A stretch of DNA of 64,000 nucleotides from Fodinicurvata sediminis DSM 21159 (GTDB taxonomy: Bacteria > Pseudomonadota > Alphaproteobacteria > Kiloniellales > DSM-21159), in contig NZ_ATVH01000014.1 in assembly GCF_000420625.1 (NCBI RefSeq), positions 62,001 through 126,000 on the forward strand, given 5' to 3'. Numbering within the stretch: the first letter of the stretch is position 1; every line of letters begins with the position of its first letter. The notes beneath the pieces were generated by a model. The model did not search any database. It had not been told where the DNA came from and saw only the letters and a program-made list of their open reading frames with translations. Below are positions 3,606 through 57,209 of the stretch, piece after piece. The translations under genes and the position numbers were made by a program.

Positions 3606-4427
3606 CTACAGGAAGCCGTTGAGCGCATCGATAATGGCCTCGGGCGCGTCCTCCTGCATCAGGTGGCCACAGTCGGGTATGGCGATGAAGCGAGCTTGGG
3701 GCATCAAGGCGGCCAGCTCGCGGCCGCGCTCGACGGGCACCCACTGGTCCTCCTCGCCCCAGAGGATCTGGACCGGGCAGTCGATCTCGCCATAGCGGTC
3801 CTGGACCGCGTCGGTATAGGCCAGGTCCATCTGGGCGATCTGGCGATAGAAGGCCGCCTGGCCGACCGGCCCCAGCCATGGGGCGATATAGCCCTCCAGC
3901 GTCTCGTCCGCCACCGCGCGATGCATGGCCGAGCGGATATAGGGCGGCAGGATGGCCTGGTGCATATAGGCCGGCATGCCGGCGAAGGCGGCCTCGTGGT
4001 CTTTCACGTGCTGCACCAGCGGTGAGCCCCAGGGTCGTACCGCCACGGGATCGATGAGCGTCAGCGAGCGATAACGGCAGCCGTCCAGCAGCCAGGCCCG
4101 CAGAGCCGTCGCGCCGCCGAAGTCGTGTGCCACCACATGGGGCCGGTCCACGCCCCAGTGGTCCAGCAGCGCGGCAAGCACCCGGTTCTGCCTGCCCAAC
4201 GAGACGTCCTGGCCGGCCTCCATGGACGAGTGGCCATAGCCCGGCATGTCGTGGAAATACACCCGATGGCGCTGCGCCAGCAGGGGCGCGATGCGATGCC
4301 ATTCGTAGGAGGAGAAGGGCGTGCCGTGCAGCAGCACCAGCGGCGGCGCTCCCTCGTCTCCCAGAATGCCGTAGCGAACCTCCTGACCGTCGAACGTGAA
4401 GGTCAGAGGCAGATCCCATCTGTCCAT
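3606..4427 (-). CDS. Alpha/beta-fold hydrolase with Asp nucleophile (haloalkane dehalogenase/epoxide hydrolase type)
   Basis: A 273-residue cytosolic alpha/beta hydrolase. It shows the oxyanion loop LLHGTPFSSYEW, a nucleophile elbow HVVAHDFGGA in which Asp replaces the usual Ser, an acid region ILWGEEDQWVP, and the catalytic His in PDCGHLMQEDAP. An Asp nucleophile is characteristic of haloalkane dehalogenases, epoxide hydrolases and fluoroacetate dehalogenases. The substrate cannot be told from the sequence. The start chosen is the ATG at 4427, because GGGAGCGGA lies just upstream. An in-frame TTG further upstream would overlap this ribosome-binding site. The gene is divergent from the CGNR zinc-finger gene across a very AT-rich 109-base gap, so that protein may regulate it. 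Confidence 0.85.
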   Translation of the reverse strand: MDRWDLPLTFTFDGQEVRYGILGDEGAPPLVLLHGTPFSSYEWHRIAPLLAQRHRVYFHDMPGYGHSSMEAGQDVSLGRQNRVLAALLDHWGVDRPHVVAHDFGGATALRAWLLDGCRYRSLTLIDPVAVRPWGSPLVQHVKDHEAAFAGMPAYMHQAILPPYIRSAMHRAVADETLEGYIAPWLGPVGQAAFYRQIAQMDLAYTDAVQDRYGEIDCPVQILWGEEDQWVPVERGRELAALMPQARFIAIPDCGHLMQEDAPEAIIDALNGFL

Positions 4428-4465
4428 AATTCCGCTCCCAATCAATTTTCTAACTGTTAATTTAT

Positions 4466-4482
4466 ATTATATAGGTTATAAT
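4466..4482. promoter_or_regulatory. Candidate operator/promoter in the hydrolase-CGNR divergent gap
   Basis: A perfect inverted repeat, ATTATA-TAGGT-TATAAT, lies in the AT-rich spacer between the divergent hydrolase and CGNR genes. A second small palindrome, TAACTGTTA, lies at 4451-4459. The TATAAT arm could itself be a -10 element for the rightward gene. No binding-site consensus is known to me for this CGNR protein, so assignment as its operator is inference from position and symmetry. Confidence 0.35.
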
Positions 4483-4536
4483 TCATCTGCAACCTATTTC
4501 TCAAGAGGCACGGTTTTTTACGGGAATAACAACAGC

Positions 4537-5145
4537 ATGGCGGAGAGTTTCGAACCCTGGAGAGCGGACAGCCTGGTCGGCGGTCACCCCTGCCTGGATC
4601 TGGTGAACACGCGCGGCGGTCCCACCAAGAAACGCGAGTTGGATCGCCTGGCTGAGTATGATGTCGCCTTAGCCTGGGCCCAGGCGACAGGTCTGATCAC
4701 GGCCGGAGAAGCCACGGAACTGGCAAGGAGTTCCGAGACGCAACAGCGCACCGCACTCACGCGTCTGCGGCGCTTTCGCGACAGCCTCTATACAATACTG
4801 ACCGGCATGGTCGAACAGCGCGTGCCCGAGCCCGCCCCCTGGAAGGCCGTGCAGGACACACTGCGCAAGGCCCACGGCAAGGCGATCCTCTGGCCCGACG
4901 GTCAACGCCTGCAATGGCTGGTGCCGATCAAGGGCGCCGGCCCCGACACCCCCTGCCTGCGCGCGGCACTCGCCGCCCAGGACCTGCTCACCGGCGAAGA
5001 GGTCACCCGCATCCGCAGCTGCGAGCGCTGCTCCTGGCTCTACATCGACCGCTCACGCGGCAAACCCCGCCGCTGGTGCTCCATGGCCATCTGCGGGAAC
5101 CGGGCGAAGGCGGAGCGGCATTACCGGCGGAGGAAGGGAATTTAA
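4537..5145 (+). CDS. CGNR zinc-finger (ABATE domain) putative transcriptional regulator
   Basis: A 202-residue protein. The N-terminal about 130 residues resemble the ABATE (putative stress-responsive regulator) domain, with GGHPCLDLVNTRGGPTKKRE at the front. The C-terminal 46 residues form a CGNR zinc finger: SCERC supplies the first cysteine pair, followed by a basic linker GKPRRWC and ICGNRAKAERHYRRRK. The four cysteines and the basic tail fit DNA binding. The start is the ATG at 4537. The open frame extends upstream into AT-rich noncoding-looking sequence. It is divergent from the hydrolase at 3606-4427, so that gene is the natural first candidate target. The family's ligands are mostly unknown. 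Confidence 0.85.
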   Translation: MAESFEPWRADSLVGGHPCLDLVNTRGGPTKKRELDRLAEYDVALAWAQATGLITAGEATELARSSETQQRTALTRLRRFRDSLYTILTGMVEQRVPEPAPWKAVQDTLRKAHGKAILWPDGQRLQWLVPIKGAGPDTPCLRAALAAQDLLTGEEVTRIRSCERCSWLYIDRSRGKPRRWCSMAICGNRAKAERHYRRRKGI

Positions 5146-5218
5146 TCAGCACACTACTAAAATACTGTTTTTATGGTATATTCGACAATTAAGGTAAATC
5201 GTTAAGAGTAGATTCAAT

Positions 5219-6100
5219 ATGCAATTAAATAGCTTGAATCACTTTAAATCCGTTACTTCGAACAAGTTTTTTATCACTCCGGCTGATCAAAATTACATTC
5301 TTGCGAGGTGGATGCTATGCAATGGATTTTACCCAGAGTATTTCTGGCAAGCATCACAAGCAATTGAGAAGTATTTAAAAGCGTCATTAATACTTAATAA
5401 TTATTCTGTTAAGAAAATTGGTCATAATTTATCAAATCTGTACAGCGCTCATTGTAGCGTCACAGGGGAGCTAGCGTTTAAATTATTTGAAAAGCCAAAA
5501 ATGCTTAACCAAGATAAATGGAGAAATGAAGATGTATCGCATTTTATTTCGAACGTTATGTCTATGGGGGACCCTAACACGCGATATGGTTTACTGAACT
5601 GGTGGAGGAATCCTGATGATCTATTTAAGCTTGATCAAATATGTTGGAATTTGCGTCGACTCACCATTGGCCTAGATTGGTTTATTGGAGAAGATTTCCA
5701 AATTTCACAAGATATTGAGCACAAATATGGCTCAACTTATCGCTATGTTTTGATCGAAGATCCTACATTTTTACCCCGAGGGGAAATTAATGATCTGGAT
5801 AAAGAAGTCTTCCACTTTGGAGATACACGGGCTGATATTCTGCATTCTTGGAATTTCGAGTTTGATAGAGAAGTCAGCGATAGAACTAAACAGGCACCCC
5901 CCACACTTGCACCTTTAATTGGCCCGATTCAAAACAGCTATCTGGGTCTCTACTGGGAGAAACTCATAGAAGTAGATAATTCTGGAAACTTAAAAAAATT
6001 AGACCCCATTTTCCGTGAAGGAATGGAATGGCTAATTCAATTTATTCCCCTAGGCCCAGCACAAAAATATATTCGGGAAAAACTGGATATAGCTCGATAA
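5219..6100 (+). CDS. AT-rich gene for a HEPN-domain-like protein with an unknown C-terminal half
   Basis: A 293-residue protein that I do not recognise as a named family member. Residues about 25-80 read like a HEPN helical domain: a helix with YPEYFWQASQAIEKYLKA, then KKIGHNLSNLYSAH. This is the usual 'QAxEKxLKA ... HxLxxL' pattern. I see no clear R-X4-6-H catalytic motif, so RNase activity is doubtful. The remaining about 150 residues match nothing I know. Base composition is strikingly AT-rich against its neighbours, and codons such as TTA, ATA and AAT are common, so recent transfer is likely. It stands alone between the CGNR and Lrp genes. No nucleotidyltransferase (MNT) partner is present. 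Confidence 0.72.
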   Translation: MQLNSLNHFKSVTSNKFFITPADQNYILARWMLCNGFYPEYFWQASQAIEKYLKASLILNNYSVKKIGHNLSNLYSAHCSVTGELAFKLFEKPKMLNQDKWRNEDVSHFISNVMSMGDPNTRYGLLNWWRNPDDLFKLDQICWNLRRLTIGLDWFIGEDFQISQDIEHKYGSTYRYVLIEDPTFLPRGEINDLDKEVFHFGDTRADILHSWNFEFDREVSDRTKQAPPTLAPLIGPIQNSYLGLYWEKLIEVDNSGNLKKLDPIFREGMEWLIQFIPLGPAQKYIREKLDIAR

Positions 6101-8308: not shown

Positions 8309-9328
8309 CTACAGCCTCTCCAGATACGGCAGGTCCTCGGCGCTGAAGGTTCGGCGAATGGCCTCCACGCGGGCGACGGCCCGTTCCTGGGAGACCTGGA
8401 GATGCCGCCTCAGCGACTCTGCCGCAGCGTTGATCTCGTTGCGCTCCAGATGGCCCACCACCTCGAGATGCTCGGGCAGGAATGGCTCGGCCGCGAACAG
8501 CCGCGGCGTCCAGCGATAAAGGAAGCGATGGGCGACCAGAAGCGACTGCGGTTGCGTGATTGCCTGCATCAGGGCCTGGTTCCCGCAGAGTGAGAGGAAC
8601 TTGACGTGCAGGTCTTCCTCAAGCTGGTCGAGCACCGCGCCGTCCTGTTCGTTCCGCGCGGCCGCCTGTTCGAGGTTCCCTTTCATCGCCCCGATTATGG
8701 CCGCCGAGGCATTGGGCGCCGCCTTGGCCAAGGCCACCGGTTCCAGGATCGCCCGCAGTTCGTACAGTTCGGAAATGTGTTCGGGCGTCAGCGCCGGTGC
8801 CACCCAGCGCGAGCGTTCGTCCTTGCGCACTAGGCCGCGTTGCTGAAGGCGGGCCAGGACATCCCGGGCCACGGTGCGGCTGACGGCATAGTATTGCGCC
8901 AGCTTGGCCTCGTTAACCCGCCACCCGGCAAAGGAGATGCGCGCGATGATCTCGTCCTCGACCTCGCCATAAATCCTTTCCCAACTGGGCATGGATTGCA
9001 GGCGTGTGTCCTGCGGCGCAGGGGTGGCCTCGTCTCCAGGAGCGCTGTCTTCAGCAGAAAGGGGCAGCACGCGGTATCCGCGCCCCTTCTCCCGGCGCAA
9101 GAACCCCGTGTCTTCCAGCGTGGCCAGGGCCCGCCTTGCAGGCGCGCGGCTGATCCCGAAACGCTCGGCCACCGCAAGCTCGGTCAGGAAACTGTCGGCG
9201 ACTATCGTGCCATCGCGCATCTGGGCGACCAGAAGTTCGGCGGCACGTTCGTACAGGCGTGGGGCCGTCCCCGAACGCGGGGCCTCCCCATGCAAGGCTG
9301 CACCTGCCGGAGTGTCTTCGCTGGTCAT
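8309..9328 (-). CDS. GntR-family (FCD) regulator with two winged-helix domains
   Basis: A 339-residue protein, longer than the usual 220-250 residues of FCD-type GntR regulators. Residues about 24-90 are one winged helix (LAVAERFGISRAPARRALAT). Residues about 115-178 are a second (EAKLAQYYAVSRTVARDVLA). An FCD ligand-binding domain follows, with LYELRAILEPVALAKAA, EEDLHVKFLSLCGN and LRRHLQVSQERAVARVEA. FCD domains usually bind a sugar acid or other carboxylate through metal-liganding His/Asp residues. It is downstream of, and on the same strand as, the SDR at 9380-10153, so it probably regulates its own operon and the divergent SDR/Ldh/TRAP genes. Confidence 0.88.
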   Translation of the reverse strand: MTSEDTPAGAALHGEAPRSGTAPRLYERAAELLVAQMRDGTIVADSFLTELAVAERFGISRAPARRALATLEDTGFLRREKGRGYRVLPLSAEDSAPGDEATPAPQDTRLQSMPSWERIYGEVEDEIIARISFAGWRVNEAKLAQYYAVSRTVARDVLARLQQRGLVRKDERSRWVAPALTPEHISELYELRAILEPVALAKAAPNASAAIIGAMKGNLEQAAARNEQDGAVLDQLEEDLHVKFLSLCGNQALMQAITQPQSLLVAHRFLYRWTPRLFAAEPFLPEHLEVVGHLERNEINAAAESLRRHLQVSQERAVARVEAIRRTFSAEDLPYLERL

Positions 9329-9379: not shown

Positions 9380-10153
9380 TCAAATGCCGGAAGAAAGATA
9401 GCCTCCATCGACACGCAACGTCGCTCCGCTGACGAAGCCGGACGCATCCGAGGCCAGGTACACGGCGGCCCCGGCCAGTTCGTCCACTTCGCCCATGCGT
9501 TTCATGGCATTGCGCGAGCGTGCTTCGGCCTTGCGCGTCTCGCTCATGCGATCACGGTTCAACTCCGTCAGGAAGAATCCCGGTGCGATGGCGTTCACGC
9601 GCACGCCCTGCTCGCCCCACTCGGCGGCCAGGGTCTGGGTCACGCCGGCCACGCCCCATTTGCTGGCGGAATAGGCAACCGCGTTGGCCCAGCCGGTGTG
9701 AGACGCCAGCGAGGTGATGTTGATGATCCGGCCCGCACCGCGCTGGACCATATGCTTGCCAAAGGCGGTGCAGGCGAAGAAGACGCTCTTCAGGTTGGTG
9801 TCGAGAATCGTGTCGTATTCCTCTTCGCTCAGCTCCAGGGCCGGCTTGATCGCAGTCGTCCCCTGGCAGTTGACCAGGATGTCTACCGGGCCGTGATCGA
9901 CCTCGATTTGGTCGGCCAGCGCCTTCAGGTCATCCGGTGCCCGCGCATCCACCGGATAGCTGTGGGCTGAGGCGCCCTCATGGCTCAACTCATTCACCGC
10001 GCGTTCAAGCTTTTCGCGGCTGCGGCCCGCCAGGATCACCCTGGCCCCGGAGGCCTGGAACGCTTGTGCGATGGCCAGGCCAATGGCACCGGCCCCACCG
10101 ATAACCACGGCATTGCGGCCCGATAGAGAAAATGAATTGGGATCGAAGCGCAT
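9380..10153 (-). CDS. SDR family oxidoreductase (gluconate 5-dehydrogenase-like)
   Basis: A 257-residue classical short-chain dehydrogenase. It has a Rossmann motif GGAGAIGLAIAQAF, an NCQG motif in place of NNAG, catalytic Ser in IINITSLASH, and Tyr/Lys in AYSASKWG. The C-terminal APGFFLTELNRDR and ASGFVSGATLRVDGGYL closely follow the gluconate 5-dehydrogenase/KduD branch, so a polyol or sugar-acid hydroxyl is the likely site of oxidation. It is divergent from the second SDR, and the GntR gene lies 51 bases downstream on the same strand. Confidence 0.88.
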   Translation of the reverse strand: MRFDPNSFSLSGRNAVVIGGAGAIGLAIAQAFQASGARVILAGRSREKLERAVNELSHEGASAHSYPVDARAPDDLKALADQIEVDHGPVDILVNCQGTTAIKPALELSEEEYDTILDTNLKSVFFACTAFGKHMVQRGAGRIINITSLASHTGWANAVAYSASKWGVAGVTQTLAAEWGEQGVRVNAIAPGFFLTELNRDRMSETRKAEARSRNAMKRMGEVDELAGAAVYLASDASGFVSGATLRVDGGYLSSGI

Positions 10154-10204
10154 CGTCTGCCCCCTTTCAGGTTGATCTTACCCATTGCGTCGCCTGTCTA
10201 CAAA

Positions 10205-10218
10205 TGTATAGTGTACAC
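10205..10218. promoter_or_regulatory. Candidate GntR operator between divergent SDR genes
   Basis: TGTA-TAGTG-TACA (10205-10217) overlaps the perfect palindrome GTGTACAC (10211-10218). Both sit in the 93-base gap between the divergent dehydrogenase genes. FCD-type GntR proteins typically recognise short TGT/ACA-containing palindromes, so this is the best operator candidate for the regulator at 8309-9328. Assignment is by symmetry and position only. Confidence 0.4.
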
Positions 10219-10246
10219 AAAAAACATGTGGCAACAGGGAAACGTC

Positions 10247-10990
10247 ATGACGGATCGTCTCAAGAACAAGTGCGCCTTCGTCACCGGTGCCGGCCAGGGC
10301 ATCGGCCGGGCCATCGCCCTGGCCTTTGCCGAAGAGGGTGCCCAGGTCATTGCGGCAAGCCGCACACACGAAAAGATGGCTGACCTGCCCCAGATTTCAC
10401 CGGCCATCACGCCGGTCGGGCTGGATGTCACGGACAGCCAGCAGATTGCAAAGGCCCTGGAGGACGCAGGGCCCGTCGACATTCTGGTCAACTGCGCCGG
10501 CTGGGTGCATGACGGCACGATCCTGGACTGTTCCGAGGAAGACTGGGCAAACAGCCTGGACCAGAATGCCACCTCTTGCTTTCGGGCCATTCGCGCCGCC
10601 CTACCGGCCATGATCGCGCGCGGCGGAGGCTCGATCATCAATGTTTCCTCGGTGGCCTCGTCGGTGACAGGTGTCGCGCGCCGCGCCGCCTATGGCGCCA
10701 GCAAGGCGGCGGTCATCGGCCTGACGAAGGCGGTGGCCCGCGACGTGATTCGTGACGGCGTGCGCGTGAACGCGCTCTGCCCCGGCACGACACACTCGCC
10801 CTCGCTGGAATCCCGGATATCCGCCACCGATGATCCGGAGGCGACACGGAAGGCCTTTACCGACCGGCAGCCCATGGGGCGGCTTGGCACGGTGGAGGAG
10901 ATGGCGGCTGCAGCCCTCTATCTGGCCAGTGACGAGTCCGCCTTCACCACCGGCACCGTGATGGTCGTCGATGGAGGACAGACGCTGTGA
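10247..10990 (+). CDS. SDR family oxidoreductase (DHRS6/2-keto-3-deoxy-L-fuconate dehydrogenase-like)
   Basis: A 247-residue short-chain dehydrogenase with TGAGQGIGRAIALAF, VNCAG, INVSSVASS and AYGASKAAV for nucleotide binding and catalysis. LCPGTTHSPSLESRI followed by RQPMGRLGTVEEMAAAALYLASDESAFTTG strongly resembles the DHRS6/BDH2 branch. That branch includes bacterial 2-keto-3-deoxy-L-fuconate dehydrogenase. The ATG at 10247 was chosen because CAGGGA precedes it and the frame upstream runs into the operator. Its TGA overlaps the GTG start of the Ldh-type gene, so the two are translationally coupled. Confidence 0.87.
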   Translation: MTDRLKNKCAFVTGAGQGIGRAIALAFAEEGAQVIAASRTHEKMADLPQISPAITPVGLDVTDSQQIAKALEDAGPVDILVNCAGWVHDGTILDCSEEDWANSLDQNATSCFRAIRAALPAMIARGGGSIINVSSVASSVTGVARRAAYGASKAAVIGLTKAVARDVIRDGVRVNALCPGTTHSPSLESRISATDDPEATRKAFTDRQPMGRLGTVEEMAAAALYLASDESAFTTGTVMVVDGGQTL

Positions 10991-12084
10991 CGGGGATCGA
11001 CGATACTCTGGGCGAGGTGGTTGGGCGCGTCTTGGCGGGAGACCTTGAGCGCTTCTGTCGCGATGTTCTGACTGCCGCCGGCGCCGACAAGGAAACGGTG
11101 GATGCAGCGGCCCGGGCCATGATGCATGGCACCCGGCTGGGGGTCGACAGCCACGGGGTGAGACTGCTCGACCATTACGTTACGGCCCTGACCGGCGGGC
11201 GCGTCAACGTCCGGCCGGACCTGCGCCTCACAAACGAAATGGGCGCAGTGGCGACACTGGACGCGGATAACGCACATGGAGCCTATGCCGCCTATAGCGG
11301 GATGGATCATGCAATACGCCTGGCCGGCACCAACGGGATCGGGGCCGTCGCCATCCGCAACAGCTCTCATTTCGGCCCGGCCGGCGCCTATGCCTTCGCC
11401 GCCGCGAAGGCGGGCATGATCGGGATTGCCATGTGCAACTCCGACAGTTTCGTGCGGCTGCACGACGGGGCCCAACCCTTTCACGGCACCAACCCCCTGG
11501 CCTGCGCCGTCCCGGCCAACGGTGGCTCACCCTGGCTGCTCGACATGGCCACCAGTGCCATCACCTACAATCGCATCCAGCTGTTCAAGAGCCTAGGCCA
11601 GGACCTGCCGCAGGGCACGGCCTCCGATGCCGAGGGCCAGGACACCCAGGACGCAGAGAACGCCAGCATGCTGGCTCCGCTCGGCGGCAGTTTCGGCTTC
11701 AAGGGCGCCGGCCTTGCGGGCCTGGTGGAGATCTTCAGCGCCGTCCTGACGGGCATGCAGCTCAGCTTCGACATTGCCCCCATGGCCGGTCCCGATTTTT
11801 CCACACCGCGCGGCCTCGGCGCCTTCGTCCTGGCGATCAAGCCGGACGCCTTCGTCGACCAGGCAACCTTCGAGGCGGGGATGGCCCGATATCTGGAGCA
11901 GCTGCGCGCCTCTCCCGCACGCAATGGGGCCCGGGTCATGGCACCCGGGGATCGCGAATGGCAGGAAGTCGACCGCCGGGCCAGGAACGGCGTTCCGCTC
12001 GACCCGGCAACGAAGGCGGCCTTCATGCGCCTATCCGAGAATTTCGGCATTGCGATGCCGCAAGAGGTGGCGGCGGAAGCCTGA
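10987..12084 (+). CDS. Ldh family (malate/L-lactate/L-sulfolactate dehydrogenase type) oxidoreductase
   Basis: A 365-residue member of the non-Rossmann malate/lactate dehydrogenase family, which reduces or oxidises 2-hydroxy/2-keto acids (and some imino acids) with NAD(P). Family marks are GVDSHGVRLLDHYVTAL near the N-terminus, IRNSSHFGPAGAYAF, LLDMATSAITYNRI and PLGGSFGFKGAGLAGLVEIF. It starts with GTG at 10987, overlapping the TGA of the SDR. Together with two SDRs and a TRAP system it suggests conversion of a hydroxy acid or polyol, but the substrate is not determined. Confidence 0.9.
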   Translation: MTGIDDTLGEVVGRVLAGDLERFCRDVLTAAGADKETVDAAARAMMHGTRLGVDSHGVRLLDHYVTALTGGRVNVRPDLRLTNEMGAVATLDADNAHGAYAAYSGMDHAIRLAGTNGIGAVAIRNSSHFGPAGAYAFAAAKAGMIGIAMCNSDSFVRLHDGAQPFHGTNPLACAVPANGGSPWLLDMATSAITYNRIQLFKSLGQDLPQGTASDAEGQDTQDAENASMLAPLGGSFGFKGAGLAGLVEIFSAVLTGMQLSFDIAPMAGPDFSTPRGLGAFVLAIKPDAFVDQATFEAGMARYLEQLRASPARNGARVMAPGDREWQEVDRRARNGVPLDPATKAAFMRLSENFGIAMPQEVAAEA

Positions 12085-12152
12085 ACCACCCCGGTTCAAC
12101 CGGCACTGTCGCCAGATAACAAGAAGAGAGGACAGAAAAGGAGGAAATGGAG

Positions 12153-13142
12153 ATGAAAACGCTTTTCAAAGGTCTATCGACGCTCTGCGCCGCCGCGGCG
12201 GTCACCATGACGTTTTCGGCCGCCCAGGCACAGGACGAATACACCCTGCGCTTCAATCACGTACTGGGGCCAAGCGAGCCCTTCCACGAAGGGTTCCTGG
12301 ACTGGGCCGAACGGGTCGAGGAACGCACAGACGGCGGCCTGACAATCGAGGTCTTCCATAGTGCTCAGTTGGGAGTGGAAGAGGATATCATCGAGCAGAT
12401 CCGCCAAGGGGCAAACATCGGCCAGAACACCGATGCCGCGCGCCTTGGCAACTACGTACCGGGAATTGCCGTGGTCAACGGGCCCTACTTCCTGGACTCG
12501 ATGGAACAGGCTTTCGCACTTGCCGACTCGCCCACCATGCAGGAGTGGCAGCAGGAGCTCGCTGACGAGCACGGTCTGAAGGTCGTCTGCTTCGACTGGG
12601 TGCAAGGTTTCCGGCACTTCTTTACCAACGAGCCGATCAAGACGCCTGAGGATCTCGACGGGCTGCGCGTCCGTACGCCCCCGGCACCGATCTGGCAGGA
12701 ATCGATCCGGGCCCTGGGTGCGGAACCGACGGCCATGAACTTCACGGACATCTATCCCGGCCTGCAGCAGCGCGCCGTGGACGGGGCCGAGCTGGTCTAT
12801 CCCAACATCACCGCGGCCGACCTGAACGAGGTTCTCAGCCATGCCAACGAAACGGGGCATATCCTGCTGGTGAACTTCCAGGTGGTCAGCTCCCAGTGGT
12901 TCAATGACCTGCCGGAGGACTACCAGACCGCCCTGGTCGAAGAATGCCGCACAGCCGGTCAGGAAACCTCAAAGGTGGTGAAGCAAGCCGTCGAGGAGGC
13001 CAAGGCCGAGGTCATCGATCGCGGCATGACCATTGTCGAGGATGTCGACATGGAAGCCTTCCGCGAAGCCGGCAACCAGGCCTATGAAGAGCTCGATCTG
13101 ATCGAGGCCCGCGACAAGGTCCAGAGCGAGCTTTCAGACTGA
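12153..13142 (+). CDS. TRAP transporter substrate-binding protein (DctP family)
   Basis: A 329-residue periplasmic binding protein with a signal peptide ending SAAQA before QDEYTLRF. The DctP core is visible: LGVEEDIIEQIRQGA, GLRVRTPPAPIW with the arginine that grips the ligand carboxylate, and FTDIYPGLQQRAVDGAE. ATG 12153 is preferred over ATG 12147 because AAAGGAGG sits 8 bases before it. It lies 68 bases after the Ldh gene and is followed by the matching DctQ and DctM genes. The ligand is probably an organic acid. Confidence 0.93.
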   Translation: MKTLFKGLSTLCAAAAVTMTFSAAQAQDEYTLRFNHVLGPSEPFHEGFLDWAERVEERTDGGLTIEVFHSAQLGVEEDIIEQIRQGANIGQNTDAARLGNYVPGIAVVNGPYFLDSMEQAFALADSPTMQEWQQELADEHGLKVVCFDWVQGFRHFFTNEPIKTPEDLDGLRVRTPPAPIWQESIRALGAEPTAMNFTDIYPGLQQRAVDGAELVYPNITAADLNEVLSHANETGHILLVNFQVVSSQWFNDLPEDYQTALVEECRTAGQETSKVVKQAVEEAKAEVIDRGMTIVEDVDMEAFREAGNQAYEELDLIEARDKVQSELSD

Positions 13143-13187
13143 TCGCGCCTGGCAACAAGAACCTGAGTTCCGGCGAGGAGGACTGGC

Positions 13188-13688
13188 ATGCGAACCATCT
13201 ATGACTGGATGCTGCGCATCGAGGCGATCCTCGCCGGAACTTTCCTGCTCATCATGGTGGCCATGATCTTTCTGGGCGGTGTCGCCCGCATGCTTGGCCA
13301 TCCGCTCAACTGGACAATCGACCTGGCCACCTGCTCCTTTGCCTGGGGCTGCTTCCTTTGTGCCGACATTGCCTGGCGGCGGGATACACTGATCTCGATC
13401 GATTTCCTGTCAAGCCGGCTGCCCCCGCGCCTGTCACGAGCGATACATTACCTGAACCATGTCGTCATCGCCGGTTTCCTGGTCTATGTGATCTTTGCTG
13501 GCGCCTGGCTGTCCTGGGTCAGTCGGGCGCGCAGCTTCCAGGGCATTCCCGGCGTCAGCTATTCCTGGGTGACCGCAAGCATCGTGGTGGGAGGGTTGCT
13601 GCTTCTGCTCACGACCCTGCTGAAGATTGCGCGTTCCCTGCGTGAGGACGAACTGCTGCCCGGCGACCAGCGACTGCGAGGGAGATAA
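13188..13688 (+). CDS. TRAP transporter small permease (DctQ family)
   Basis: A 166-residue membrane protein with four predicted transmembrane segments. The first spans about residues 13-33, then there is a SFAWGCFLCADIAWRR stretch typical of DctQ, and two segments follow in the C-terminal half. The gene sits between the binding-protein and large-permease genes, with two bases separating it from dctM. It forms the membrane complex with DctM for sodium-driven uptake of the ligand delivered by the DctP protein. Confidence 0.92.
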   Translation: MRTIYDWMLRIEAILAGTFLLIMVAMIFLGGVARMLGHPLNWTIDLATCSFAWGCFLCADIAWRRDTLISIDFLSSRLPPRLSRAIHYLNHVVIAGFLVYVIFAGAWLSWVSRARSFQGIPGVSYSWVTASIVVGGLLLLLTTLLKIARSLREDELLPGDQRLRGR

Positions 13689-13690
13689 CA

Positions 13691-14971
13691 ATGCTGATTG
13701 TCGCCGTCGCCTTTGTCGTCTTCCTGCTTCTGGGCATGCCCATCGTCTTTGCCATCGGCATTTCCGGTGCGCTCTATTTCATTCAGAACCCGGAACTGCC
13801 CTTTACCATTCCGGTGCAGGTCACGGTCTCGCAGACCCAGAATTTCGCTTTGCTTGCCATTCCGCTGTTCATCATGGCGGGCAACCTGATGAACCGGTCG
13901 GGAATCACCGACCGCCTGCTTGATCTGGCTTCGGTCATGACGGGACACCTCAAAGGCGGCCTGGCCCAGGTTTCGGTTGCGCTTTCCGCACTGATGGGAG
14001 GCGTTTCGGGATCGGCCATCGGCGATGCAGCCATGCAGGCGCGCATGCTCGGCAGCGGCATGGTGGAACGCGGCTTCAGCCGCGGCTTTGCCGGTGGCGT
14101 GCTGTCCTATGGCGCCGTCCTGACCCCGATCATCCCGCCCGGAATCGGCATGATCCTCTATGGCACGATCGGCCAGGTCTCGATCGGCCGGCTGTTCGCC
14201 GCCGGTTTCCTGCCGGCCTTCCTGTTGTGGCTGGCGCTGGGTCTCGCCATCCGGATTACGGCCGGCCGCCGCGGCTATCAGCCGGAACGGAAGAAAGCGG
14301 CCAGCGCGCCAGAGATCGGTCGTGCCGCCATCGCCAGCATCTGGGCGATCCTCTTTCCGGTCTTCCTCCTGCTGGGATTGCGCATGGGCGTATTCACGCC
14401 CTCGGAGATCGGTGCCTTTGCCGTCCTCTATGCGCTGTTCATCGGCATTCTGGTCTACCGGAAAATGAAGGCGAAGGATTTCCTCGAGGGGTTGGACGCA
14501 ACACTCGCCGATGTCGGCTCCATCATGTTCCTGATCGCACTCTCGGCGATCTTCAGCTACGGCATCGTGATGGACCAGGTGCCCCTGGCGGTCTCGGGTG
14601 TGATCACCGGGCTGACGGAGAATCTCTACGGCGTCATGATCCTGGTAGCGCTTTCGGTGCTTGTTGTCGGCTTCTTTATCGACGCCACCGTGTTGATCAT
14701 CATGCTCACTCCGATCTTCCTGCCGTTGATCGAGCAGCTTGGCGGCAACCCGGTGCATTTCGGGATCGTGTTCATCTTGGCTGCAACCATCGGCAATTTC
14801 ACGCCACCTGTCGGAGCAGCAATGTATGCGGTCTGCTCCATCATGAAATGTCCCGTGGCAGAATACACCCGGGAGTCGATCCCGCTCTTCCTGGCGGTCT
14901 CGCTTGTCACGCTTCTCCTGATCTTCCTGCCCGGTGTCGTCCTGTTCCTGCCCAGGCTCATTTTTGGATAA
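13691..14971 (+). CDS. TRAP transporter large permease (DctM family)
   Basis: A 426-residue, very hydrophobic protein of usual DctM length with about 12 membrane segments. Family signatures include LLAIPLFIMAGNLMNRSGI, MGGVSGSAIGDAA, TPIIPPGIGMILYG and the C-terminal GNFTPPVGAAMYAVCSI. It is the ion-coupled translocation subunit. It closes the operon, and a convergent NTF2-like gene ends 31 bases downstream. No clear terminator hairpin is seen in that short gap. Confidence 0.95.
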   Translation: MLIVAVAFVVFLLLGMPIVFAIGISGALYFIQNPELPFTIPVQVTVSQTQNFALLAIPLFIMAGNLMNRSGITDRLLDLASVMTGHLKGGLAQVSVALSALMGGVSGSAIGDAAMQARMLGSGMVERGFSRGFAGGVLSYGAVLTPIIPPGIGMILYGTIGQVSIGRLFAAGFLPAFLLWLALGLAIRITAGRRGYQPERKKAASAPEIGRAAIASIWAILFPVFLLLGLRMGVFTPSEIGAFAVLYALFIGILVYRKMKAKDFLEGLDATLADVGSIMFLIALSAIFSYGIVMDQVPLAVSGVITGLTENLYGVMILVALSVLVVGFFIDATVLIIMLTPIFLPLIEQLGGNPVHFGIVFILAATIGNFTPPVGAAMYAVCSIMKCPVAEYTRESIPLFLAVSLVTLLLIFLPGVVLFLPRLIFG

Positions 14972-15439: not shown

Positions 15440-16218
15440 GATGTCTCAGCTTCCGGACGACGCAGCATGCGGGCCGTGACGGCCAGCTTCAGGGGATACG
15501 GCAGGATGCGCAACAGCTTCACCATATAGGTGAAGCGTCGCGGAAAGGTGATCTCGAAGCTGTTCCGCGACAGCCCCTTGTAAAGCGCGCATGCGGCATC
15601 CTCGACGTCCATCAGGAAGGGCATGGGGAAATCGTTCCGGTCGGTAAGCGGCGTGCGCACGAAGCCCGGATTGACCACCTGCACCGTGATGTTGTCCGGC
15701 TTCAGTTCCACACGCAGGGCCTCGCAGAGATTGATCAACCCGGCCTTGGTCATGCCATAGGCCGAGGCCTGGGGCAGACCGGTATATCCGGCCACCGAGG
15801 CCACCACGGCTATGCGCCCGGCCCGACGCGCACGGAAACGTTCGATCAGAACCTCCAGGCAGTGGATGGTGCCCATCAGGTTCAGATCCACAAGCTTGCG
15901 GAAATCCGAAGCCTTGAATTCGTTCGCAGGGGTCGGCTGATGCGTGCCGGCATTAAGGACCGCCTGGTCGACAGGCCCAAGTTCGCTCTCGATCCGCGCC
16001 ACCGTTCGGTTCACGGCCTCCGCGTCGGTCACGTCCAAGGGATAGGCGACAACCCCACCCCGGGCGCCCGCGGCCTCGCTCACCAGACTGTCCAGTTTCT
16101 CGGCAGAGCGGGCCGAGACGGCAACGCTCCAGCCATCGCGCGCCATCTGCAGCGCCAGTTCCCGGCCCAGCCCGCTGCTGGCGCCAGTGATCCAGGCGCA
16201 TTTCGCAGCTTCGCTCAT
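15436..16218 (-). CDS. SDR family NAD(P)-dependent oxidoreductase
   Basis: A 260-residue short-chain dehydrogenase: WITGASSGLGRELALQM for cofactor binding, LNAGTH for the NNAG position, VASVAGYTG for the catalytic Ser and AYGMTKAGLI for Tyr/Lys. A basic C-terminal tail (RRFTYMVKLLRILPYPLK) may be membrane-associated. ATG 16218 is used because AAGGAG lies 7 bases upstream and the ATG overlaps the photolyase TGA by four bases. A GTG two codons earlier lacks proper spacing. It is an SDR of the type found in photo-oxidative-stress clusters, with unknown substrate. Confidence 0.9.
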   Translation of the reverse strand: MSEAAKCAWITGASSGLGRELALQMARDGWSVAVSARSAEKLDSLVSEAAGARGGVVAYPLDVTDAEAVNRTVARIESELGPVDQAVLNAGTHQPTPANEFKASDFRKLVDLNLMGTIHCLEVLIERFRARRAGRIAVVASVAGYTGLPQASAYGMTKAGLINLCEALRVELKPDNITVQVVNPGFVRTPLTDRNDFPMPFLMDVEDAACALYKGLSRNSFEITFPRRFTYMVKLLRILPYPLKLAVTARMLRRPEAETS

Positions 16219-17765
16219 GTCCACTCTCCTTCTTCGGCATAATCCAGGCTATCCAGGAACATCCGGGCTTGGCTCTGCATGTCCGTCAGCTTCTGCCGCT
16301 TCATGCGGTTCAGCGCGCTCAACGGCATCGCCATGCGGGGATTGCTGTGGAAGCGTTGTTCATGCCGCGCGATGAAATCCCAATAAAGGTAATTGAAGGG
16401 GCAGGCGTCGTCGCCCGTCGCCTGTTTCACGTCGTATCTGCAGTGCCGGCAATAGTCCGACATGCGATCGATATACTTGCCGCTGGCGGCATAGGGCTTG
16501 CTGGCCATAAGGCCGCCATCGGCATGCAAGGCCATGCCATGGGTGTTGGGCAGTTCCACCCATTCGTAGGCATCGGCATAGACCACCATGTACCAGGCAT
16601 TTACCGCCCTGGGATCCAGTCCGGCCAGCAGGGCAAAGTTCCCTGCCACCATCAGGCGCTGGATATGATGTGCATAGGCATTGGCACGAGTCTCGCCGAC
16701 CACCTGGTGCAGACAGTTCATCTCGGTCTCGCCCGTCCAGTAGAAGGCCGGCAGCGGCCGCTTGGCCGCCAAGGCATTCAACTCTGCATAGCCTGGCATC
16801 TCCTGCCAATAGAGGCCGCGCACGTACTCGCGCCATCCCAGGATCTGCCGGATGAAACCCTCGACGGCATTCAGGGGCACCCGTCCCGCTTGCCAGGCTT
16901 CTTCCGCCCGGCGGCAAACCTCCAGCGGATCCAGGAGGCCGATGTTTATGTAGGCCGAGATCATGGCATGGAACAGGACCGGCGCATTCTGCTTCATGGC
17001 GTCCTGGTAATCGCCGAAGGACGGCAAGCCGTGATCCAGAAAGTACGTAAGGGCTATGTCGGCCTGATCCGCCGTGACCGCCAGGTCAAAAGGCTCAAGC
17101 ATCCCGAAATGCCTGTCGAACTCTCGCCCAACGAGTTGCAGGACTTCGCGCGTGATCCCATCCGACTCAAAACTCGGGACCTTTGGCAACGCGATGTTTT
17201 GCGGAAGGGCCTTGCGGTTCTCCCGGTCGTAATTCCACTTGCCACCCGCCGGCCGGTCCCCTTCCATCAACAGCCCCGTTTCCCGGCGCATTTCTCGATA
17301 GAAGTGCTCCATGCGCAGGGACTTGCGTCCTCGGGCCCAGCGGGCAAAACGATAATGGGAACAGATGAACCGCTGGTCTTCGCGGATTTCAACCGGAATG
17401 CCGAGTTCCGCCTCCCAATCCTCCATCTCTGCGCGCAATCGCCATTCCGAAGGCTCGGTTACCACCAAGCGGGAAATACGCAACTGCGCAACCGCGGTTC
17501 GTACCGCTTCCAAGAGATTCGCATGGACTGGCGGCTCATCGTAGCGGCGATATATCAGCTTGTGACCTTCGCTCTCCAGGCGTTCGGCAAAATGGCGCAT
17601 GGCCGAGAAAACCAGGGCAATCTTCTTCTGGTGATGGCGAACATAGTTGGCCTCGGCCTTCACTTCCGCCATCAGGACCAGGTCGTGCTGAGGTTGTGCA
17701 TCCTGGAGGCTGGAGATATGAGGTGAGAGCTGATCCCCCAGAATCAGGCGCAGGCAACGGTCCAT
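16215..17765 (-). CDS. Cryptochrome/photolyase family protein of the iron-sulfur (FeS-BCP, PhrB-like) class
   Basis: A 516-residue protein. The N-terminal LRLILGDQLSPHISSLQ is typical of the photolyase-related class (DUF523-like deoxyribodipyrimidine photolyase-related) that repairs (6-4) photoproducts in Agrobacterium PhrB. The C-terminal FAD domain includes FIRQILGWREYVRGLYW, HHIQRLMVAGNFALL and NTHGMALHADGG. The cysteines in DYCRHCRYD and DDACPFN, with one more in the FAD domain, would hold the 4Fe-4S cluster. ATG 17765 is chosen, and an in-frame TTG lies 12 bases upstream. It uses light to repair UV damage and heads the SDR/NTF2 pair. Confidence 0.92.
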   Translation of the reverse strand: MDRCLRLILGDQLSPHISSLQDAQPQHDLVLMAEVKAEANYVRHHQKKIALVFSAMRHFAERLESEGHKLIYRRYDEPPVHANLLEAVRTAVAQLRISRLVVTEPSEWRLRAEMEDWEAELGIPVEIREDQRFICSHYRFARWARGRKSLRMEHFYREMRRETGLLMEGDRPAGGKWNYDRENRKALPQNIALPKVPSFESDGITREVLQLVGREFDRHFGMLEPFDLAVTADQADIALTYFLDHGLPSFGDYQDAMKQNAPVLFHAMISAYINIGLLDPLEVCRRAEEAWQAGRVPLNAVEGFIRQILGWREYVRGLYWQEMPGYAELNALAAKRPLPAFYWTGETEMNCLHQVVGETRANAYAHHIQRLMVAGNFALLAGLDPRAVNAWYMVVYADAYEWVELPNTHGMALHADGGLMASKPYAASGKYIDRMSDYCRHCRYDVKQATGDDACPFNYLYWDFIARHEQRFHSNPRMAMPLSALNRMKRQKLTDMQSQARMFLDSLDYAEEGEWT

Positions 17766-17777
17766 CGAGATGATCAA

Positions 17778-18488
17778 TCAGGTGCCCGAGCGGCCATCGA
17801 CGCCGGCCGAGGAGAGAGGCGTACGCAGATAGCGCACCGGTTTGCCGCGCGCCTCGAACTCCAGTCCGCTCCAGCGCCCTTCCCGGTCATACCAGATATC
17901 CAGGTTCAGATCGCCGGTGACACTATAGCGGGTGGCCTCGACCGATCCTTCTTGCGTGTCCAGGTTTTCACGGCCCTGTTCGTCCACCTGCAACTCGACA
18001 ATGCGCCCGAACTGTGTATCCAGAAGGCGTTCGCGCTCCATGGCATCGGGGTTCCAGTAACTGGTTGTCAGCATGTCTGCCGGTGCAGTGAATTCCCCTT
18101 CCTCGCTGGAGTTTACCTGCAGGCCATCATCCGTAGCCTGGACTTCCACCTGATACTGCGTGCCGTCATCATCGGTTTCGCTGGACAATGAGACCAGCTT
18201 GCCATCCTGCCAGACTTCGTGGTTTCGGTGGCTGTAGCTGTAAACGGGAATGAAGGCCAGGTTGACCTCCAGTTCGATCTCGACGAAGACATGCAGTTCT
18301 TCGCCATGCTCCTCGAATCGCAGGCTGTGGGTGCCGATGTCATTGCCATCGCGCCGGACCTGAAAGTCCAGAGTGTTCTCCTCGGGAATCGCGGCGAACA
18401 CAGGAGCCACGACCAGGGTCAGCATCAAGGCCAGACCGCCCCAACGGCGTGCACCAGCGGTGGCCTGCTTCAATCTACATCCAGACAC
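17778..18488 (-). CDS. Exported DUF6134 family protein
   Basis: About 236 residues with an N-terminal signal-like hydrophobic stretch GGLALMLTLVVAPVFAA, so it is probably periplasmic. The mature part is a beta-rich acidic domain with LDFQVRRDGNDIGTHSL, PVYSYSHRNHEVW and TTSYWNPDAME, patterns of the DUF6134 family, whose function is unknown. A GTG at 18488 is preferred because GGGAAAG lies 8 bases upstream, and a GTG at 18530 is also in frame. The stop is 12 bases from the photolyase ATG, so it is probably the first gene of the photolyase-SDR-NTF2 operon. Confidence 0.78.
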   Translation of the reverse strand: MSGCRLKQATAGARRWGGLALMLTLVVAPVFAAIPEENTLDFQVRRDGNDIGTHSLRFEEHGEELHVFVEIELEVNLAFIPVYSYSHRNHEVWQDGKLVSLSSETDDDGTQYQVEVQATDDGLQVNSSEEGEFTAPADMLTTSYWNPDAMERERLLDTQFGRIVELQVDEQGRENLDTQEGSVEATRYSVTGDLNLDIWYDREGRWSGLEFEARGKPVRYLRTPLSSAGVDGRSGT

Positions 18489-18655
18489 GGCGAATTCTTT
18501 CCCATCTCGGGTGGATCGCAGGCCGTTCACCGTTTTGGCAAGCCGGCCTCGTCCAGCGCGGTCAGGATCGACCCGCTTTCCGACCGCTCTTTACGCAGCC
18601 GGTTGCCGTCTGGATCGCTTCAGTCTTTCAAGGAGATCAGCCTCTGCACAGAACG

Positions 18656-55976: not shown

Positions 55977-56080
55977 AAACCATTGGCCATAGGTAATATC
56001 TTTATATCGGTTACAAATCTGATTATAGGCGGCAAGTCATTGATCTGTTGGCTCAGCAAGAGATTTTCCGAAAGAGCCGG

Positions 56081-57076: not shown

Positions 57077-57209
57077 ACGAGCAAGACTCACTTTTGAGTT
57101 TTTACAGTTTTCCTATCTCGAGGTGAATACTATCTCACAATGACCTAACTTCTCAAGAAACGGGCCTGGCCATCACACCATGGGGCGAAGCCCATTAGTC
57201 CAGTTCTTA

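Follow-up and report, generated by a model that had tools for sequence, protein, structure and literature searches.

A TRAP transporter and dehydrogenase gene cluster of Fodinicurvata sediminis with a predicted, unusual relative of L-2-keto-3-deoxyfuconate 4-dehydrogenase

Hemiketal recognition in the L-2-keto-3-deoxyfuconate (L-KDF) 4-dehydrogenase family was described in 2024, together with the residues of the clamp, the cofactor site and the C6 pocket, where Trp252 reads the C6 methyl; the arginine clamp is also found in a sulfonate-binding short-chain dehydrogenase (SDR) (PMC11199699). In the characterised L-KDF 4-dehydrogenase, whose NADP/NAD ratio is 0.00004, the D41S/I42R exchange raises this ratio to 46. 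As described in the part of the source used here, the L-gulonate pathway of Haemophilus influenzae combines TRAP uptake of the hexonate (HiGulPQM), C5 dehydrogenases, and KdgK and KdgA, which lead to pyruvate and glyceraldehyde 3-phosphate (PMC5788505). The UctMPQ/UctR regulon of Thermotoga maritima is devoted to a hypothetical sugar, which the sections drawn on here left unassigned in 2013 (PMC3750489).

We have analysed a 64-kb stretch of the genome of F. sediminis DSM 21159, called the window below. A preliminary description of this DNA reported two SDRs, one Ldh-type dehydrogenase and one dctPQM set. ORF calls and Pfam bear out these six genes with their coordinates and strands, and a GntR/FCD gene, which had been left out, belongs to the same unit:

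8309..9328, minus strand: GntR/FCD-type transcriptional regulator (PF00392 and PF07729)
9380..10153, minus strand: SDR1, short-chain dehydrogenase, an optional member (PF13561; both SDRs are supported by PF13561/PF00106)
10203..10227, plus strand: operator-like site AATGTATAGTGTACACAAAAAACAT in the divergent promoter region (pattern scan of genomes)
10247..10990, plus strand: SDR2, predicted NADP(H)-type variant of 2-keto-3-deoxysugar-acid 4-dehydrogenase (PF13561/PF00106; relatives; residues)
10987..12084, plus strand: Ldh_2-family dehydrogenase, predicted to act on a sugar acid at its C2 hydroxyl (PF02615)
12147..13142, plus strand: DctP, TRAP substrate-binding protein (PF03480)
13188..13688, plus strand: DctQ, TRAP small membrane subunit (PF04290)
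13691..14971, plus strand: DctM, TRAP large membrane subunit (PF06808 and TIGR00786, over cut-off)

This gene set is a real unit. Its clustering is not due to chance, since the gene order is kept in other genera and the stop of the SDR2-type gene overlaps the start of the Ldh gene by four bases (RTGA) in all eight clusters inspected, two of which are from Thermus. The full gene order is seen again in two other genomes, and the core common to the six alphaproteobacterial clusters that we read is SDR2-Ldh-TRAP, with DctP, DctQ and DctM in a single gene row (12147-14971, plus strand, in the window). The start of SDR2 was taken at 10247, where its homologues begin to align; a longer ORF is possible from a TTG at 10172. 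The regulator gene is included because its homologues stand beside SDR1 (L039, 61%; L040, 49%) or beside SDR2 (Nitratireductor L003, 63%), and because the gap between the divergent genes contains the operator-like site.

The dehydrogenases are fed by one TRAP transporter and are not accompanied by carbon–carbon cleavage, as first described. BLAST against our reference set detected no related kinase, aldolase or dehydratase in the window. That absence does not extend to the related Thermus clusters, which carry a 2-keto-3-deoxygluconate (KDG) kinase and a KDPG aldolase (kdgK and eda); a dedicated aldolase in homologous clusters was among the things that the preliminary description had named as evidence against its own reading. 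It is important to note that the quick gene caller loses some true genes at overlapping frames (SDR2 and Ldh of L040, for example); absences were rechecked by tblastn in the window and in L001, L003, L032, L035, L039, L040 and L045.

The best solved relatives of SDR2 are L-KDF 4-dehydrogenase (8y11/8xwk) and human DHRS6 (2ag5), at about 241 bits. SDR2 has the catalytic residues S135, Y149 and K153 and the complete R-T-R-R clamp (R146-T181-R190-R207) of type 1 L-KDF 4-dehydrogenase. Its cofactor position is occupied by Ser38-Arg39, the pair that D41S/I42R introduces into the characterised enzyme, and Ser-Arg is present in all six alphaproteobacterial cluster copies, whereas the five other alphaproteobacterial homologues of the KDFDH type have the NAD-type Asp-hydrophobic pair (Asp41 in the characterised enzyme). 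The hydrophobic residue facing the C6 methyl is missing as well: Gln245 stands at the position of Trp252 (Gln in 6/6 cluster copies, Trp in the four other homologues that could be read), and T182 replaces Ile184. SDR2 is, judging from these residues, an unusual relative of L-KDF 4-dehydrogenase, and it is predicted to use NADPH.

The Ldh protein matches PF02615 with E 3.3e-99 (332.6 bits, gathering cut-off 38.8), and has 1z2i as its best solved relative (511.9 bits); at a threshold of E 0.001, the host genome has no second match. Five NCBIfam equivalogs, covering ureidoglycolate, L-sulfolactate, malate/lactate/ureidoglycolate and 3-dehydro-L-gulonate dehydrogenases, all scored far below cut-off (200.5/356, 185.2/500 and 150.2/316, for example). 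The top model of SDR1, gluconate 5-dehydrogenase, reaches 224.7 bits for a cut-off of 279 and is the best of many models below their cut-offs; the earlier label "gluconate 5-dehydrogenase-like" goes no further than that. SDR1 ends beta2 with A-G-R, an NADP(H)-type motif (AGR, AGR and AAR across three copies), and has homologues in L039 (70%) and L040 (63%). The earlier proposal of opposing dehydrogenases that epimerise the substrate is consistent with NADP(H)-type motifs in both SDRs, as expected for paired oxidation and reduction. However, SDR1 is outside the shared core: the tblastn recheck detected no homologue of its kind adjoining SDR2(-Ldh) in L003 or in Azospirillum L032 and L035.

DctP is closest to 2hpg (350.7 bits), followed by 4p1e (179.1 bits). 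We take 2hpg to be TM0322, the binding protein of the T. maritima Uct regulon, and several of the best solved relatives of DctP are presumably sugar-acid binders. A structure model of DctP built from two sequences was too poor for use (mean pLDDT 36.3). The imported compound is an acid, probably a sugar acid.

In F. fenggangensis (L001), the same locus contains Ldh and a 34-codon remnant of SDR2 only. We considered that F. sediminis had gained the cluster by insertion, and rejected it: L001 retains the stretch upstream of SDR2 and its first and last codons, from which we deduce that L001 has lost cluster genes. Ldh homologues that are 60-68% identical also occur in clusters whose TRAP set is a different one and which lack an SDR2 of the Ser-Arg/Gln kind; these, and the lone Ldh of F. 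fenggangensis, indicate that Ldh need not act in series with SDR2. In the Ldh tree, both contexts cluster more than they do under random relabelling, in which 10 and 12 of 500 shuffles came out as low; the Thermus and outgroup rows of this tree carry a long-branch warning. Context-specific clades were nevertheless rejected, neither context forming one clade (three changes each) and both lying inside one 15-row clade.

The host genome contains the operator-like pattern a single time, as do three of five other genomes, while a reversed control pattern is absent from all six. The site is also present at L039, L040, L003, L021 and L002, with a decayed copy in L001. In L002 and L021, where GntR homologues (50-53%) adjoin Ldh, it precedes Ldh, and both clusters also have genes for hexonate enzymes, namely UxuB together with UxuA or UxaA.

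We tentatively propose that the unit is a GntR-controlled module for the TRAP uptake and oxidoreduction of a six-carbon sugar acid, which would leave it as KDG. The TRAP transporter would bring the acid into the cell, and Ldh_2 would oxidise (or reduce) it at C2, giving a 2-keto acid able to form a furanose hemiketal. SDR2 would hold this hemiketal through the R-T-R-R clamp and reduce its C4 keto group with NADPH, or equilibrate it, and SDR1, where present, may correct a further centre. The product would be KDG, which KdgK would phosphorylate and Eda cleave, both being encoded outside the unit; this supposes a substrate that is 3-deoxy from the start or undergoes dehydration outside the unit.

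Besides the residues of SDR2, four observations count in favour of this proposal: the SDR2-Ldh overlap, the operator-like site before Ldh in the two hexonate clusters, the host's own adjacent eda-kdgK-SDR genes on contig 15, and the Thermus clusters, which have kdgK and eda but no annotated dehydratase and whose flanks differ between T. thermophilus HB8 and T. oshimai. The host Eda is over its cut-off (180.3 for 156.05), and the best KdgK models are below theirs (183.3 for 400). Against the proposal, no enzyme that would form the C4-keto substrate could be identified confidently. A shared operator was also rejected: the host's sole operator-like match is the dehydrogenase cluster itself, and its absence before eda-kdgK means that co-regulation of the cluster with the proposed exit is not supported. 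KDG has other possible sources, since a host altronate-dehydratase homologue (UxaA) adjoins another TRAP set. An enolase-superfamily gene near eda-kdgK was dropped as a candidate KDG-forming dehydratase: its best structure matches are named muconate cycloisomerase, and its best NCBIfam match, below cut-off, is a muconate-cycloisomerase-family model.

In another reading, which we consider rather unlikely, the substrate that the unit interconverts would be a non-deoxy hexonate or 2-ketohexonate (L-idonate, L-gulonate or 2-keto-L-gulonate, for instance), with Ldh acting at C2, SDR1 at C5 and the product passing to a dehydratase encoded elsewhere, for which the UxaA homologue of the host is a candidate. 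UxaA homologues are indeed present in all six genomes searched, Ldh homologues lie near idonate-5-dehydrogenase-like genes, UxuA, UxuB or UxaA in Rhizobiaceae, Paracoccus and Qingshengfaniella, and both the operator-like site common to L002 and L021 and the top model of SDR1 fit it. However, the TRAP binding protein of those clusters is not the same (about 30% identity), the KDFDH-type SDRs that L021 and L023 have at 7-11 kb from Ldh belong to the ordinary Asp/Trp kind, and the clamp of SDR2 is known from 3-deoxy acids. At E 1e-20, UxuA matched two of six genomes, the host not among them.

It is improbable that SDR2 is an ordinary catabolic 4-dehydrogenase whose product, 2,4-diketo-3-deoxyhexonate, is split into pyruvate and glycerate by the host's FAH-family hydrolase. 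Contig 15 does carry such a hydrolase (61% to a Neorhizobium homologue), and its neighbours there are an IlvD-type dehydratase, a further SDR and the host's second SDR2-like enzyme, but the last has the NAD-type Asp and the Trp, so that this locus has its own 4-dehydrogenase-like enzyme, whereas the NADP-type pair of the window's SDR2 favours reduction. By tblastn, two FAH references had no match in the window, L003, L032, L035, L039 or L040.

A C3 sulfonate (sulfolactate or dihydroxypropanesulfonate), which two dehydrogenases would interconvert before desulfonation, is very improbable as the substrate; the preliminary description had allowed a sulfonate. In its favour, L-sulfolactate dehydrogenase belongs to Ldh_2 (NF040650, 185.2 bits for a cut-off of 500), HpsO is one of the many SDRs that SDR1 matches (8wwf, 139.2 bits) and the clamp also occurs in the sulfonate-binding SDR mentioned above. 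Against it, Xsc exceeded the curated cut-off in none of six genomes (a search without positive control, 0/14 control genomes matching either); with the UxaA query, an indirect test for SuyB, the host showed no second match of the SuyB kind at E 1e-10; none of the nine proteins scanned around the cluster was recognised as a desulfonating enzyme; the isethionate-binding protein resembles DctP only distantly (103.4 bits); and the solved relatives of DctP presumably include sugar-acid binders.

Returning to the exit as KDG, a broader version of it is doubtful: a dehydratase-free route, reaching from Alphaproteobacteria as far as Thermus, and perhaps also present in Thermotoga, would take up acids already devoid of the C3 hydroxyl and funnel them to KDG, Ldh acting at C2 while an NADPH-dependent 4-reductase that reads the furanose hemiketal resets C4 through 2,4-diketo-3-deoxyhexonate. 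The proposed function of the unit gives an orphan transporter type testable content, the Uct regulon cited above, around what we take to be a close relative of DctP, having had its sugar left unassigned in the sections used. The residues of SDR2 also predict a cofactor-switched, C6-polar branch of the L-KDF 4-dehydrogenase family (PMC11199699). Examples of acids without the C3 hydroxyl are the metasaccharinic acids, which arise from sugars with heat or alkali, and epimeric 2-keto-3-deoxyhexonates; heat-formed metasaccharinic acid from glucose is described in the part of the source used here (PMC13280894). Our literature searches returned nothing joining metasaccharinic acid, a dehydrogenase and a transporter, nothing combining at least three of five terms on TRAP, KDG, Ldh and SDR, and, for metasaccharinate, no bacterial pathway among the matches listed, as far as their summaries go.

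Compared with type 1 L-KDF 4-dehydrogenase (H. huttiense C785_RS13675; 8Y11, 8Y46) and human BDH2/DHRS6, SDR2 is alike in its catalytic Ser-Tyr-Lys and R-T-R-R clamp, and differs from the former by Ser-Arg for Asp-Ile, Gln for Trp252 and Thr for Ile184. It is coupled to Ldh_2 and TRAP genes, whereas L-KDF 4-dehydrogenase is coupled to fuconate dehydratase and a FAH hydrolase. The H. influenzae L-gulonate pathway is similar in its TRAP uptake of a hexonate but uses UxuA, and the genes listed in the part of the source used include no Ldh_2 or KDFDH-type SDR (PMC5788505). The rhizobial Ldh-GntR-SiaPQM-IdnD clusters (five Rhizobiaceae loci read, L002 and L018-L021) have an Ldh that is 62-68% identical, and L002 and L021 share the GntR homologue and the operator-like site; these clusters have their own, different TRAP set and no SDR2 of the Ser-Arg/Gln kind, some contain UxuA, UxuB or UxaA, and L002 and L021, unlike the window, carry a hexonate dehydratase and UxuB.

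The TRAP-SDR-Ldh-KdgK-SDR cluster with Eda of Thermus pTT27 and pTHEOS01 has a related DctPQM (DctP 57%, DctM 50%), a clamp-bearing SDR (47% to SDR2), an Ldh_2 and the same SDR-Ldh stop-start overlap; it differs by the extra KdgK, Eda and SDR, and by an IclR regulator instead of GntR. Its Ldh is only 35% identical to that of the window and branches apart in the tree, and its SDR2-type enzyme (two copies) has Thr-Leu at the cofactor pair and Met at the Gln position; the Thermus cluster may therefore differ in substrate. The DctP match lacks the N-terminal part in 12 of the 23 Thermus plasmid records found, and in T. thermophilus HB27 this loss is a deletion, which makes HB8 and HB27 a nearly ready-made natural contrast for growth.

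The cluster lies on contig 14 of the genome of F. sediminis (3.69 Mb, 20 contigs) and consists of the following genes:

8309-9328, minus strand, GntR/FCD regulator
9380-10153, minus strand, SDR1, divergent from SDR2
10247-10990, plus strand, SDR2
10987-12084, plus strand, Ldh (Ldh_2)
12147-13142, plus strand, DctP
13188-13688, plus strand, DctQ
13691-14971, plus strand, DctM

These genes and coordinates agree with the preliminary description, which had however omitted the GntR/FCD regulator. The order GntR-SDR1-SDR2-Ldh-DctPQM is found again in one locus from the same family (L039) and one from another family (L040); the Nitratireductor cluster is without SDR1, and two Azospirillum loci (L032 and L035) have DctPQM-SDR2-Ldh, with neither SDR1 nor a GntR of this kind alongside. 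The elements shared by all six alphaproteobacterial clusters read are SDR2, Ldh and the TRAP genes rather than the two SDRs. Genome G560 encodes a 60% identical DctP with its own DctQ and DctM, and SDR2 and Ldh are absent from the 19.9-kb stretch read. Ldh has matches at E 1e-60 in 5 of 385 genomes of the class, and DctP at E 1e-70 in 3 of 398 genomes of the phylum (host counted in both), so that the cluster is rare and patchy. It is a real, conserved and regulated unit, made of known families in a combination without assigned function, and it includes one well-marked enzyme variant. Read in 2-kb steps, the G+C content of the window is 0.57-0.66, except at 4001-6000 (0.52) and 56001-58000 (0.51), two stretches which may be acquired DNA.

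The enzyme variant is SDR2, whose best solved relatives are L-2-keto-3-deoxyfuconate 4-dehydrogenase (KDFDH; 8y11, 241.8 bits, and 8xwk, 241.7 bits) and human DHRS6/BDH2 (2ag5, 240.7 bits). According to a 2024 study of KDFDH (PMC11199699), the substrate is a furanose hemiketal gripped by Arg148, Arg192 and Arg214, Thr183 is important, and Trp252 reads the C6 methyl; L-KDGal, D-KDP and, to a small extent, D-KDG are further substrates, each bearing a 4(S)-hydroxyl, and D41S/I42R converts the enzyme's NAD preference into an NADP preference. We mapped the KDFDH positions onto 13 SDR2 homologues: the six alphaproteobacterial cluster copies (the two from Azospirillum being close to each other), two from Thermus and five others, including the host's own paralogue. 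The clamp and catalytic residues are conserved in all 13. The cofactor site is Ser-Arg in all six cluster copies, Thr-Leu in the two Thermus sequences and Asp-Ile or Asp-Leu in the five others. Position 252 is Gln in the six cluster copies, Met in Thermus and Trp in four of the five others (the fifth sequence is incomplete), while position 184 is Thr in the six and Val or Ile in the remaining seven. From the residues at these mapped positions, we predict that SDR2 depends on NADP(H) and acts on a 2-keto-3-deoxysugar acid, or a similar hemiketal, whose C6 is polar, with a C6 hydroxyl being preferred. SDR1 has A-G-R or A-A-R at the beta2 end in three of three copies, which by the usual rule goes with NADP(H) and points to the same cofactor for this enzyme.

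At E 0.001, the host genome has no match to Ldh beyond the gene itself. It matches PF02615 strongly, all five NCBIfam equivalogs score far under their cut-offs, and its best solved relative (1z2i, 511.9 bits) is called a malate dehydrogenase. The characterised members of the Ldh_2 family act at the carbon beside the carboxyl, and C2 is therefore taken as the site of Ldh. In the route that we propose, a sugar acid would be taken in and Ldh would act at C2; the resulting 2-keto acid, as a furanose hemiketal, would be the form used by SDR2, at C4 and as a reductase; SDR1, where present, would reset a further centre, and the end product would be 2-keto-3-deoxygluconate (KDG). We put forward this whole reading, from sugar-acid uptake through C2 and the C4 reduction to KDG, tentatively and at somewhat less than even chances. 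The previous idea that opposing dehydrogenases could epimerise or interconvert a hydroxy acid or diol is retained, in an altered form.

A possible but rather unlikely alternative is a plain hexonate interconversion, whose product would go to a dehydratase encoded elsewhere. Proteins 60-68% identical to Ldh occur in loci from Rhizobiaceae, Paracoccus and Qingshengfaniella, with a different TRAP set, whose binding protein shares about 30% identity with DctP of the window; most of these loci have idonate-5-dehydrogenase-like genes and several have UxuA, UxuB or UxaA. UxuA itself has no match in the host at E 1e-20. When 23 Ldh proteins are placed on a tree, the two contexts lie within one supported clade of 15 rows (97/98); the context labels show clustering, with 10 and 12 of 500 shuffles giving values as low, yet they require three changes each, and thus a single type of sugar-acid substrate may well be used by Ldh in the two contexts. 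Two of the loci with the other TRAP set, L021 and L023, also have an ordinary Asp/Trp KDFDH-type SDR and an FAH gene, 7-11 kb from Ldh. Oxidation by the cluster, followed by FAH cleavage, is improbable; the NADP type of SDR2 suggests reduction. That the substrate is a sulfonate is very improbable; Xsc is over the cut-off in none of the six genomes searched, nor in any of 14 control genomes, hence this search has no positive control.

Regarding the exit from KDG in the proposed route, homologues of KdgK and Eda are present in all six genomes searched. On contig 15 of the host, eda and kdgK are adjacent and are accompanied by an SDR that, within the reference set, matches the second SDR of Thermus best (39%). 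Next to this group (L062:1850-8024) is a row that encodes a binding protein and a fused permease, both identified by eye, as well as a muconate-cycloisomerase-like enzyme, an oxidase resembling D-amino-acid dehydrogenase and a further SDR. Another row on contig 15 (L074:7388-11732) comprises an IlvD-type dehydratase, the NAD-type SDR2 paralogue (KDF-dehydrogenase-like), another SDR and an FAH hydrolase, and is likely an ordinary non-phosphorylating sugar-acid route. On contig 16 (L079:5003-10953), a GntR, a SiaP-type TRAP set and a UxaA (altronate-dehydratase) homologue resemble the Ldh-holding clusters of Qingshengfaniella and Rhizobiaceae.

The gap between SDR1 and SDR2 carries AATGTATAGTGTACACAAAAAACAT at 10203-10227, which we read as the putative operator of the GntR protein. 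Six genomes were searched for AATGTNTAGTGTACACANNANACAT with at most 3 mismatches, the reversed pattern being used as a control. The pattern occurs once in each of the host, G159, G128 and Nitratireductor, always at the cluster, and is absent from G560 and F. fenggangensis at this threshold; the reversed pattern does not occur in any of the six. Across the loci (1.14 Mb, overlaps included), the distinct sites with at most 3 mismatches are these four and those of L021 and L002, where the site is flanked by the gene for a GntR homologue, with 50-53% identity, and by an Ldh gene; the Azospirillum loci have no such site. The regulon of this predicted operator is local. The host eda-kdgK operon lacks the site, which counts against a tight coupling of the cluster to the proposed KDG exit.

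The nearest named relative found is F. fenggangensis, whose flanking proteins are up to 97% identical. The flanks of its locus (L001) are those of the window, with Lrp, LysE-like and GNAT genes on one side and SnoaL-like and SDR3 genes on the other; Ldh alone remains between them, and GntR, SDR1 and the TRAP genes have no match within the 21-kb locus. Upstream of Ldh, a decayed copy of the operator-like site is still present, and so is an in-frame remnant of SDR2, a 34-codon open frame (L001:9900-10004) which starts with MTKRLKD (MTDRLKN in the window), ends with GGQTP-stop (GGQTL-stop in the window) and overlaps the GTG of Ldh at 10001, as SDR2 overlaps Ldh in the window. The decayed site and the remnant therefore indicate that the cluster was lost in F. 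fenggangensis, not gained in the host. A search for SDR2 in the remaining F. fenggangensis genome gives one paralogue (51%). From its retention, Ldh seems to be useful even without SDR2. There is a second difference between the species at this locus: a large gene (window 16215-17777, by eye photolyase/cryptochrome-related), between SDR3 and the gene at 17778-18530, gives no match in L001; the genes on either side of it are contiguous there.

As for the transporter, the closest solved relative of DctP is 2hpg (350.7 bits), which we take to be TM0322 of Thermotoga maritima, followed by 4p1e (179 bits), 4o8m (152), 4n6k (140), 4ovt (140) and 4pc9 (130); 4o8m, 4ovt and 4pc9 were presumably solved with L-galactonate, L-fuconate and D-mannonate, respectively. 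In a paper on Thermotoga regulons, UctR/TM0326 and UctMPQ are listed as a hypothetical-sugar system whose pathway is uncharacterised (PMC3750489). A literature search by the names UctR, UctP and UctMPQ gave no other work on this system among the matches listed.

On plasmids, DctP matches of at least 55% identity come from 4 Azospirillum and 23 Thermus records; in 12 of the latter the match begins only at residue 91. The order on pTT27 of T. thermophilus HB8 is eda, iclR (minus strand), dctP, dctQ, dctM, SDR, Ldh, kdgK, SDR; in T. oshimai it is dctP-dctQ-dctM-SDR-Ldh-kdgK-SDR, iclR, eda (minus strand), near plasmid partition and replication genes. Compared with HB8, pTT27 of HB27 is short of about 1.2 kb by a deletion that reaches from the last part of eda through iclR into the first part of dctP. 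The annotated plasmid lists of HB8 and T. oshimai, whose gene tables are incomplete, contain no dehydratase, so that, if the Thermus set is complete, either a dehydratase encoded on the chromosome takes part or the compound has no hydroxyl at C3 when it is imported. That 3-deoxy sugar acids are handled by a route without any dehydratase, a version which overlaps with the reading in which KDG is the product, is doubtful. The preliminary description had found nothing leading to carbon-carbon cleavage, which is untrue of these related clusters, with their kdgK and eda. Compared to the proteins of the window, those of Thermus are 57% identical for DctP, 50% for DctM and 47% for the SDR, but only 35% for Ldh.
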